A stretch of 53,225 nucleotides of DNA, taken from Spirochaetia bacterium (GTDB taxonomy: Bacteria; Spirochaetota; UBA4802; UBA5550). A program made the translations under genes and the position numbers. The first letter of the stretch is position 1; every line of letters begins with the position of its first letter. The stretch is from NCBI GenBank assembly GCA_009885955.1, contig VFJS01000074.1:1-53225 (forward strand). Direction: 5' to 3'. Positions 43,858 through 47,678 of this stretch are shown here, piece after piece. The notes beneath the pieces are model-generated. The model searched no databases and had not been told where the DNA came from. It was given only the letters and a program-made list of their open reading frames with translations.

Positions 43858-44934
43858 TCAGAGCTTTTCTCCTGTCTCGAGATCGAGCTTGGACTCTTTA
43901 CCTTCCGATGATATAACAAGTGAATTGTCTATAATCTTCAGCTTTCCATCATTCTTTAAATTCTTCCTCCACAACACAGGACCGTCACTGGCTGCGCAGA
44001 ATACATAGTCTCCTGAGGCTATATAGATCCTCTTATCCCTGTTCAGAGGGCCTTCAACCACGTTCCCCTCCCATACTACTTTACCATTTTTAATGAAATA
44101 TATCTCATACCTTGTTACAAGGAGGCGGCCATCGGCCTTTGGCATCTCCTTTTCCTGTGCTATAACCTTAATGATCCTCTGTATCACCTCTCTGGGTTTT
44201 ATCTGTATAGTGACTATCTCTTTCCCCTCTCTGGAAAAATCCTCGGGTTTGAAATTCTGGATCGATTCTTTTGAAATAGCAGATTCATTTTTCAGCTGGG
44301 TTATGATAGTTGAAATCTCCTTCCCCTTACCTTCTTTTATGAGTTTATCCGCAGCAGCTTCAACTTTCTGAACTTCTTTTGCGGTTATCACTACCTTTTT
44401 TTCCTTTTCAAGGATTGGCGCCTGTTCAAGGACCTTTTCTATGCTTCCTTCAAACTGCTTCACCCTCTTTGCTATCTGTATCTTTCCGTCAAAAACCTTG
44501 ATCCTGGTTGTTTTCATGGCGTCGGCTTCAACACTGAAGTTTGTTCCCCTTACACCGGCAACTGCTGTTGGGGTTTTAACAATGAAACTCTCAGATTTTA
44601 TCAGCTTTTTAGGTTTGCATAGCATCTTTCCCACATCAAGTCCCAGGGTCGTACTCTCACTATTATCCTTTCTAATGATATTTGATATAACAACTTTCGA
44701 TCCCTCCTTGATTCTGATTATGGAATCTCCTATTTTAACATCGCAGAATGAATCAGCTGCGGTAATTATTTCATCCTTCTCCTTGATTATTTCACCAATT
44801 TCTACAGCAGCATTATTTCTCTTCACATCACCGATCATAAAGGTGATCATGGCATATTCATCCACCTTCTCCTTCGAGCAGCTGTAAACCGAACTGATAA
44901 TCATGCACATGCATACCAAACATAATTTTTTCAT
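43858..44934 (-). CDS. FecR-domain lipoprotein
   Basis: This 358-residue lipoprotein has a lipobox near VYSC. A FecR-type beta domain follows (about 28-140: FMIGDVKRNN, GEIIKEKDEIITAADSFCDVKIGDSIIRIKEGSKVVIS, TPTAVAGVRGTNFSVEA), then a charged coiled-coil middle (about 150-240). A C-terminal PQQ/beta-propeller-blade-like segment ends it (GKVVWEGNVVEGP, LWRKNLKNDG). The domain often senses or scaffolds in the periplasm. No sigma/anti-sigma partner is adjacent. The divergent gap 44935-45255 is AT-rich, with no gene. Confidence 0.85.
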   Translation of the reverse strand: MKKLCLVCMCMIISSVYSCSKEKVDEYAMITFMIGDVKRNNAAVEIGEIIKEKDEIITAADSFCDVKIGDSIIRIKEGSKVVISNIIRKDNSESTTLGLDVGKMLCKPKKLIKSESFIVKTPTAVAGVRGTNFSVEADAMKTTRIKVFDGKIQIAKRVKQFEGSIEKVLEQAPILEKEKKVVITAKEVQKVEAAADKLIKEGKGKEISTIITQLKNESAISKESIQNFKPEDFSREGKEIVTIQIKPREVIQRIIKVIAQEKEMPKADGRLLVTRYEIYFIKNGKVVWEGNVVEGPLNRDKRIYIASGDYVFCAASDGPVLWRKNLKNDGKLKIIDNSLVISSEGKESKLDLETGEKL

Positions 44935-45255: not shown

Positions 45256-46548
45256 ATGATTGATGATAGAATAATGAATATCCTCCTGAATTCCATAATT
45301 GGTGATGCCCTGGGCTCTACTTTTGATGGATTAAGCAGGGGACACACAGCATCCATATACAGAGATTCCCCAGGCTATTTTGACCCGCCGGTTAAAAAAA
45401 CCGGAACAGAAAAATGGAAAAAACCGGGCCTTTACACATCGATGTCTCAGTTGATGCTCATCTCGTCGATGTCAATGGAAAGGGGCCGTTTCAAAAAAAA
45501 AGCATTCATTGAAAATATCAGGAGATCCCCTAAAGTTGAAAATACACCATGGGGGATATTCAGACACACCGGCATGGCTGAAAAAAAATTCCTTGATACC
45601 ATATTAAACAGCGCTATCAGCCCGTTAACACAGAATTATTCATCGGCCAGGCTCCTCCCGCCAGTCATTTCCCTTTCTTTTGGAAGAATGAGCGAAAATG
45701 ATCTTGTTCATGACTCAGCTGCCATGATGTCCCTCATGACCATGGATTATCATACAATTTCCGGGGGTATCCTATTATCATCCCTTTTGAATCATCTCCT
45801 TTCCATGGAAAGCCCATTACTGAAAGATTTGCTCCTGTCAGCCCTGTCTATCAGCAGGGGGCTGAGGGCCATTATTGAAAAAAACTCCCCGGATATATTC
45901 AGCTTACGGCTTAATCCGGACATGCTGTCTGCTGCAGCAGATTCTTATTCTGACATACTTTCTGAAATTATTGATGCCCCTGATAAACTCAAAGCCGAGG
46001 AAATGATTACAAGAAAAATCAGCAGATTAATGAACAGTAATGTGAAAAAAGCCTCATTAGACCATCCCCTGGCCATACTCCCTTATACCCTGTATCTTTT
46101 TCACAGTTATCAGGATGATGAGAAAAAATTTCTCCATACAATGGCTAAAGAAGGCGGAGCTGCGTCGGCTCTCACATCAATTGCCGGCGCTGTTTCAGGC
46201 GCCTTTCCTGATAATTTTACAATCCAGCCAGAACTGACAGGCCAACTGGTAAATAAAAAAAAGATAGCTTCAATAGTTGAAACAATTGTTTCAGGAAGAA
46301 AAACTGCTCATTTTATTGAAGATTTCCTCATTTCTGAATCCCTTCTGACAAAAAAGGAGATGGAAGAGTTCAATGCAAAGCAGAAAAAAGATAAAAAAGG
46401 GGCAAAAAGTGTTAAAAATCGTAAAAATATTGAAAAAATGATGACAACACATGTTGTTGAAAGCTGGACAAAGCTTGATAAAGCCAGATGGAAAAAAACC
46501 AGAAAAAATATGATACAAATTGATGATTCCGAAAGTGATGAAGAATAA
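45256..46548 (+). CDS. ADP-ribosylglycohydrolase-fold protein lacking metal ligands
   Basis: This 430-residue protein keeps the DraG/ADP-ribosylglycohydrolase framework. It starts NSIIGDALGSTFDGLSRG, has a GLYTSMSQLMLISSMSM segment where active enzymes have a TDDT metal-binding motif, and GGAASALTSIAGAVSGAF where they have GGDTDT. The metal-binding Asp/Thr residues are replaced, so it is probably non-catalytic and may bind ADP-ribose or a protein. A Lys-rich tail (about 375-430) may bind nucleic acid or partners. Assignment rests on motif alignment by eye. Confidence 0.6.
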   Translation: MIDDRIMNILLNSIIGDALGSTFDGLSRGHTASIYRDSPGYFDPPVKKTGTEKWKKPGLYTSMSQLMLISSMSMERGRFKKKAFIENIRRSPKVENTPWGIFRHTGMAEKKFLDTILNSAISPLTQNYSSARLLPPVISLSFGRMSENDLVHDSAAMMSLMTMDYHTISGGILLSSLLNHLLSMESPLLKDLLLSALSISRGLRAIIEKNSPDIFSLRLNPDMLSAAADSYSDILSEIIDAPDKLKAEEMITRKISRLMNSNVKKASLDHPLAILPYTLYLFHSYQDDEKKFLHTMAKEGGAASALTSIAGAVSGAFPDNFTIQPELTGQLVNKKKIASIVETIVSGRKTAHFIEDFLISESLLTKKEMEEFNAKQKKDKKGAKSVKNRKNIEKMMTTHVVESWTKLDKARWKKTRKNMIQIDDSESDEE

Positions 46549-46702: not shown

Positions 46703-46750
46703 GTACAATAAGGAGTATTGTACGTGACTACTTATCCTCATGGAGGTTGA
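46703..46750 (+). promoter_or_regulatory. leader hairpin with ribosome site in loop, plus 8-codon mini-ORF
   Basis: GTACAATA (46703-46710) and TATTGTAC (46716-46723) form an 8-bp stem whose loop is AGGAG. Eight nt after the loop a GTG opens an 8-codon frame (MTTYPHGG) ending TGA at 46750, 1 bp before the main ATG. The main gene has its own GGAGG inside that frame. Confidence 0.5.
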
Positions 46751-46751
46751 C

Positions 46752-47678
46752 ATGTCAGCGAAAAAATATGGATTTATCTCCATTTTAATTATCTTAGGCG
46801 TAGTTTTAACATTCAATATTGTATCATCTATGGATTTATCATATACTCAGATAAATATACAGGATATATCGAGATATGATGAGGACAGGCTTGCATATCA
46901 GCAAATTGAGATAGTCCCGGTAATGTATCACCCTGAAAAATTTGACAATTCTGCAGCAACTCTTCTCGTTATAAAAGATAAAAAAATGTACCTCTTTATT
47001 GATGGGTATGATAATCCCAATGATGTCAGAACCCAGAGACTTATCACCGAAATGGAGAACAGACTGCTACCCGATGTATGGAAAACAAAAATCGACAATC
47101 TCCCTGATTACATGGTAATAACTGAAAGAAGAGTTGAAATACAAAAAAAAATGGCTGATCAGAACTCAGGACAAAAAAGCCTGGGCCCCAAATTCGACAA
47201 TTTTTACAAAAATATAAGAAATAAATTGATACTTCAACATGTAAAAACATTCAAGACCCTTATGATTAACAGAAAAGAATCCGGACTCTATGTTGTTAAG
47301 TCCCCGCTTCCGAAAAAAGTATATGATACCGGCCCCACAAAATTCTTTATTTCAGTTTCAGGGAAAACAATTGATGAAAAACAGTTCTATGCAGAAGATG
47401 CTGATGGCGACGGTGTAACTGAAACTTTCTGCGTGCACATGGGCGACGGTTTCAACTGGGGATATAAATCCGGGCCGAATATTATTTTCATATATAAAAA
47501 TACCCAGAAAGAAATTTCTGATATAATTGGAAAAATGACAAATGAAGCTTATTATGGCACAGAAGAAGAGGATAAAATTGTTCAGAAATCATTCTTCCAG
47601 GAGGATGAAATTACAAATATTATAGATGATATTTACAGGCTGTCACCGGATCAGGAAAAACTCCTGCTAACAAAATAG
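46752..47678 (+). CDS. exported protein of unknown function
   Basis: This 308-residue protein has a signal peptide or N-terminal anchor (KKYGFISILIILGVVLTFNIV). A mixed alpha/beta region follows, with a DADGDGVTET segment (about 222) that looks like a Ca2+-binding loop and is rich in acidic residues. I recognise no family. ATG 46752 is used because GGAGG lies 5 nt upstream. It is expressed from its own promoter and leader and followed by a strong terminator. The product is probably periplasmic. Confidence 0.65.
   Translation: MSAKKYGFISILIILGVVLTFNIVSSMDLSYTQINIQDISRYDEDRLAYQQIEIVPVMYHPEKFDNSAATLLVIKDKKMYLFIDGYDNPNDVRTQRLITEMENRLLPDVWKTKIDNLPDYMVITERRVEIQKKMADQNSGQKSLGPKFDNFYKNIRNKLILQHVKTFKTLMINRKESGLYVVKSPLPKKVYDTGPTKFFISVSGKTIDEKQFYAEDADGDGVTETFCVHMGDGFNWGYKSGPNIIFIYKNTQKEISDIIGKMTNEAYYGTEEEDKIVQKSFFQEDEITNIIDDIYRLSPDQEKLLLTK

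Follow-up and report, generated by a model that had tools for sequence, protein, structure and literature searches.

Among proteins of the ADP-ribosylhydrolase (ARH) fold, DraG and human ARH3 are active metal-dependent hydrolases with aspartate ligands according to those parts of the review PMC7050489 that treat them, and the same review, in its available text, lists ARH2 as suspected of being inactive. ARH2, or ADPRHL1, of the vertebrate heart is documented in the excerpts of PMC7390403 as a dead enzyme with a changed pocket in which the ancestral cleft is nonetheless essential. As such, it resembles the bacterial protein described here, which we refer to as pseudo-ARH, in combining an ARH fold, lost metal ligands, an altered pocket and a selected non-catalytic role, but it is eukaryotic and, as given in the same excerpts, keeps one aspartate, the equivalent of Asp55. 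We assume that ADPRHL1 and the spirochaete pseudo-ARH are of independent origin; to our knowledge, no counterpart of the basic SWTK tail of pseudo-ARH occurs in ADPRHL1. A search by title and the beginning of the abstract, with subscription literature outside its reach, found no paper on a bacterial pseudo-ARH.

Structurally, the best match to pseudo-ARH is the archaeal ribosylglycohydrolase MJ1187 (1t5j; Z 32.6, rmsd 2.5 over 293 residues), which is also the best PDB profile match to the family (E 1.4e-22). Unlike pseudo-ARH, however, MJ1187 keeps WTDDTEQ and GGDTDS, and at 313 aa it is too short to carry a long C-terminal tail. The fold is likewise shared with DraG (2woc, Z 29.2) and human ARH3 (2foz, Z 29.4), whereas pseudo-ARH is without all four of the aspartates that serve as ligands in such enzymes. 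The ARH fold is also used in complexes, since two ARH-fold chains sit in large assemblies, namely 8xks_Q, the ARHL subunit of the Orf2971-FtsHi motor complex (Z 31.1 to our model; also 8xqw_G), and 6sga_FP, which is mt-SAF23 of the trypanosome mitoribosomal small subunit (Z 20.9) and is alike in fold and in its role as an assembly subunit. Both are organellar, and their sequence relation to the pseudo-ARH family is very weak (E 0.041 for ARHL and 0.33 for mt-SAF23). Literature searches on mt-SAF23, on ARHL with FtsHi/Ycf2, on mitoribosome assembly factors and on FtsZ immunity yielded nothing usable on ARH-fold subunits, and a term search of the available text of the mitoribosome preprint PMC11785013 returned no mention of SAF23.

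The gene lies on a contig of 53,225 nucleotides (VFJS01000074.1, assembly GCA_009885955.1, Spirochaetia bacterium), which was analysed at its full length and is called the window below; its features are collected in Table 1. The order to which the window belongs is presumably UBA4802 of GTDB.

Table 1. Positions in the window of the pseudo-ARH gene, its parts and its neighbours
Feature	Coordinates	Strand	Basis
Pseudo-ADP-ribosylhydrolase gene	45256..46548	+	430-aa ORF, stop included; PF03747 match; AlphaFold model and fold matches
ARH-fold domain, residues 1-348	45256..46299	+	VIA-align matches cover model residues 1-348
First replaced metal motif, residues 58-65, GLYTSMSQ (canonical xxW[ST]DDTQ)	45427..45450	+	hhalign register; Asp in 0/42 rows with letters
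Second replaced metal motif, residues 300-308, GGAASALTS (canonical GGDTDT)	46153..46179	+	hhalign register; Asp in 0/44 rows
Conserved pre-tail segment ExxLTxKExEE, residues 361-371	46336..46368	+	Residue conservation in family alignment A1
Conserved basic tail core HVVESWTKxDKAKWKK (consensus), residues 399-414	46450..46497	+	S403, W404, T405, K406 invariant in A1
Downstream neighbour, 312-aa protein with N-terminal hydrophobic helix, without Pfam family	46740..47678	+	Same strand downstream, 28/41 loci
FecR-domain protein resembling LipL45-type lipoproteins, divergent upstream	43858..44934	-	PF04773, 53.4 bits; 28/41 loci

An ARH fold with a replaced metal site

The original prediction held that the framework of the ADP-ribosylglycohydrolase family is kept in this protein, and both a profile search and a structure prediction, which it had proposed as checks, returned the ARH fold and not a different one. 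The query matches PF03747 (ADP_ribosyl_GH, Pfam) with 37.5 bits against a gathering score of 26.2, over profile positions 3-278 of 287, and 30 of the 37 family members match the same profile at E ≤ 0.01. No enzyme family other than PF03747 was matched, a single NCBIfam match being far under its cut-off. The AlphaFold2 model, predicted from the 37-row family alignment A1, is nearly all-helical (pLDDT 89.3, pTM 0.85) and least confident in the tail, where residues 381-410 average a pLDDT of about 53-61; residues 1-348 of the model match 1t5j, 2woc, 2foz and other ARHs with Z of 26-33 (Foldseek, VIA-align). An ARH fold is thereby predicted for the product of 45256-46548 with good support from profile and model. 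Given that no signal peptide is evident by eye, we infer that the product is cytosolic.

Both metal-ligand motifs had been described as replaced, and the alignment with canonical enzymes bears this out. When A1, which comprises 37 of the 44 rows, was compared by hhalign with an alignment of 12 canonical Spirochaetota ARHs (A3; 12 of 15 canonical-ARH regions, the remaining three being L146, a fusion, and L147 and L149, where other proteins were read), the two aligned with a probability of 99.4 and an E of 1.4e-21, with LYTSMSQ opposite TWSDDTS and EGGAASALTS opposite LGDDTDTTAA. The replaced motifs are hence in register with SDDT and GDDTDT, and no alternative Asp ligands aligned elsewhere in the protein. 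The query has TSMS in place of T/S-D-D-T and GGAASA in place of GGDTDT, and it lacks the metal motifs of catalytic ARHs. Across the query and 43 homologues, Asp is found at the first-motif ligand columns in none of the 42 rows with letters there and at the second-motif columns in none of 44 rows, such that no orthologue retains an aspartate at any of the four positions, all of which are invariant in the 12 canonical control rows; gaps in the motif columns stem from L006 and L020, which have late-Met starts, and from the fragment L040, and the 81-aa fragment L046 was left out of the family alignments. The former ligand positions vary, as seen at 302-305, and are mostly occupied by small or hydrophobic residues, while the flanking Y60, Q65, G300 and G301 are invariant or nearly so. 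The glutamate of the Glu-flap (E41 in ARH3) is D24 in the query, and the order rows have Glu in 6 and Asp in 13 of 26 cases. Judged by these alignments, the loss of the metal site in pseudo-ARH is well supported.

Retention across one order

Relatives of the query were detected in 45 of 392 sampled genomes of the phylum, 44 of them in the window's order and one, G002, outside it. By profile search, 44 of 46 order genomes carry pseudo-ARH, including all 30 with at least 90% completeness and at most 5% contamination, and the two genomes without it are 72% and 73% complete. There is one match per genome, with the exception of one genome in which two matches lie on different contigs and cover different parts of the protein. 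Seven within-order pairs gave NG86 dN/dS values of about 0.07-0.29, with dS exceeding 1 in two of them. Because purifying selection coincides with order-wide retention, the active site has been lost from a protein that is not decaying, and the predicted combination of a conserved loss with retention of the fold is borne out among the orthologues. Conservation peaks at residues 41-60, 261-280, 361-380 and 401-420, and WxKPGLY, FRHP and TRATVNHP stand out as conserved motifs of the putative cleft rim. Pseudo-ARH is a vertically inherited, near-universal and single-copy gene in one order of uncultured Spirochaetota. Viral contigs, phages and plasmids contained no matching relatives; a mobile or phage gene was rejected on this ground, and a defence gene for want of a padloc match.

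The basic tail and the relatives in a second phylum

The C-terminal tail, which had been read as a Lys-rich addition, is real and strongly conserved. Few parts of the protein are as conserved as residues 399-414, with SWTK itself invariant in A1, and in the preceding segment E361 is invariant and L364, T365, K367, E368 and E371 are nearly so. The tail is present in 18 of 18 rows of the tail alignment A2, and in 7 genomes a profile made from it found pseudo-ARH once per genome, the sole further match, at E 0.14, being to a frame with stops. The tail profile also aligns gap-free with eukaryotic homeodomains, which account for 10 of its 11 PDB matches (best E 0.021), whereby WxKxxxAKWKK falls at the position of the recognition helix. 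We rejected a homeodomain assignment and treat the resemblance as no more than a lead, as the PDB matches are sub-threshold (E 0.021 or worse), the Pfam homeodomain is matched in 0 of 18 members, the column of the invariant recognition-helix Asn, which we take to be Asn51, is variable in A2, and the tails from the second phylum described below are without the conserved Trp of SWTK.

This second, small phylum has relatives in 6 of 7 sampled genomes, of which five are readable in full (L152-L156) and the sixth, a 120-aa frame in G393, stayed outside the motif comparison. The five share KWRKPGLY, an EYGLTxRE (ExExGLTxRE-like) segment and a basic tail with a DxKKF[RK][RK]-like core. Their metal motifs range from TDET with GGDSDA in three near-identical members, through TVDV with GGDADG in one member where part is kept, to SSNT with GGETAA in one member that has lost all four Asp. 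PF03747 scores are far higher for L154 (183 bits), L153 (159) and L152 (147) than for G002 (44) and the query (37.5). Since the basic tail co-occurs with mostly intact ligands, it did not arise only with the loss; the tail as such was correctly predicted, but its addition and the loss of the metal site are not coupled, given that ligand-keeping relatives are tailed as well.

A tree built without both motifs and the tail, with canonical ARHs (9 of the 12 rows) as the assumed outgroup to 26 order rows, G002 and 5 rows from the second phylum, recovered the order (100/97), then G002 (94/95) and then the second phylum (99/92), apart from the canonical ARHs. The placement of L152 inside the second-phylum clade, which is weak (91/43), suggests that the metal site may have been lost a second time, independently, in that phylum.

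Genomic neighbourhood

Neighbours were counted at 41 loci, comprising the window and 40 others, some of them on short contigs. The FecR-domain gene is divergent upstream of pseudo-ARH in 28 of the 41, and its window copy matches NCBIfam models of Leptospira LipL45/Lsa33-type lipoproteins below their cut-off. Downstream, also in 28 of 41 loci, a same-strand gene follows whose product of about 300-360 aa belongs to no Pfam family; members of this protein's own family occur in 46 of 46 order genomes. The 312-aa window copy has no Pfam match at E ≤ 0.1, and its model (pLDDT 83.5) has no Foldseek match at E ≤ 0.001 and a best VIA Z of 3.9. A conserved DxDGDGxTE motif was observed in this protein. 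In 15 of 41 loci, a 4HBT-like thioesterase is encoded convergently downstream, with 19.4 bits, just under the cut-off, in the one member scanned. Rfam and tRNA scans of the window gave no matches. The neighbours are thus of envelope or housekeeping types that name no pathway, and together they suggest a stable housekeeping locus. Elsewhere in the same genome, one further PF03747 match is a truncated frame of 123 aa (contig C100, L001, 1501-1851, minus strand), of canonical type, that keeps TDDS and ends before the second motif; it lies close to where the BrxC gene of a BREX-type defence locus begins.

Possible function of pseudo-ARH

As judged from its sequence, pseudo-ARH probably works by binding and not by catalysis. 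We favour, with moderate confidence, a role as a non-catalytic ARH-fold adaptor that binds through its remodelled cleft and its basic SWTK tail. In such an adaptor, the former dinuclear metal centre would be filled by small or hydrophobic residues and would no longer allow hydrolysis of ADP-ribosyl bonds, the remodelled cleft rim would engage one partner, and the SWTK/basic-helix tail might dock on a second, for which RNA, a ribonucleoprotein or an acidic protein surface are the most plausible candidates.

Alternatively, the old cleft might house a new, metal-independent active site formed by H30, D43, W54, R103, R265 and N/D269-H270-P271. Across the order, most of these residues show little or no variation, which sets them apart from the old ligand positions; however, R265 is Lys in the query itself and no enzyme family beyond PF03747 is matched, and we consider a neo-functional enzyme unlikely.

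The original prediction proposed a sensor or regulator of ADP-ribose-type ligands, in which the dead site would bind ADP-ribose, NAD or a related nucleotide and signal through the tail. The fold is indeed that of ADP-ribose-binding enzymes, and the cleft-adjacent segments 41-60 and 261-280 remain conserved. In canonical ARHs, ADP-ribose is contacted by the histidine of THxH, by the asparagine ahead of GGDTD and by the NG pair of NGxxMR. Taking the columns that at least 7 of the 8 canonical rows share (L142 left out), we counted how many of the 26 order rows keep the residue. The His of THxH and the Asn before GGDTD are each kept in 0 of 26, the Asn and the Gly of NGxxMR in 2 of 26 each, and a conserved Met and a conserved Trp in 0 of 26, as are the four Asp ligands, with the qualification that the alignment between the motifs is uncertain at such a distance, which makes the counts for the non-Asp pocket residues weaker than those for Asp. 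Scaffold residues, by comparison, are kept, namely the Gly before the second motif in 26, the Asp of GDA in 25 and the Ala in 24 of 26 rows. That canonical pocket residues besides the aspartates are also gone weakens the case for an ADP-ribose sensor. Nor does pseudo-ARH track canonical ARHs or macrodomains: a second PF03747 match elsewhere in the genome is present in 10 of 45 order genomes, counting the truncated one of the window's genome (eight of the other nine loci show TDD[TS], and L171 gave no frame), and macrodomains are present in 31 of 45. Hence, the analysis does not support this part of the prediction, and a ligand sensor seems to us improbable.

A bolder reading, and one that we would call a long shot, is that pseudo-ARH is an obligatory, non-enzymatic component of core machinery, with a refilled cleft and an SWTK/AKWKK tail docking on nucleic acid or a ribonucleoprotein, and that the related phylum preserves intermediate steps of the decay. 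If this were true, the homeodomain-like tail would represent a convergent solution for nucleic-acid binding.

A pseudoenzyme partner of an active ARH or ADP-ribosyltransferase, acting as an allosteric regulator or an immunity-like blocker, is brought to mind by the ARH toxin-immunity pairs among the fold matches (6dre/6drh, 8za7). We regard it as very unlikely, as canonical ARHs occur only sporadically in the order, none of the neighbours was recognised as toxin-like, padloc and the phage and plasmid records gave no match, and a vertical, near-universal, single-copy spread is unlike that of immunity genes; a regulator of an active paralogue was rejected on the same ground, namely that canonical copies occur in a minority of order genomes. 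Least probable of all is a still-active ARH with an unusual metal site built from other residues, for although 25 of 26 rows retain the aspartate of the GDA motif (D17), Asp is absent at all four ligand positions in every row with letters and the hhalign register offers no nearby conserved acidic substitute.

Where the best-described pseudo-ARH in the accessible literature, as far as that literature covers it, is the vertebrate ADPRHL1, here such a protein is fixed across a bacterial order as a near-universal, single-copy gene. With its relatives, it forms a natural series in which the metal site passes from largely intact to wholly lost while the basic tail is present throughout, and because this series exists, the role that an ARH fold takes on after the loss of catalysis becomes testable.
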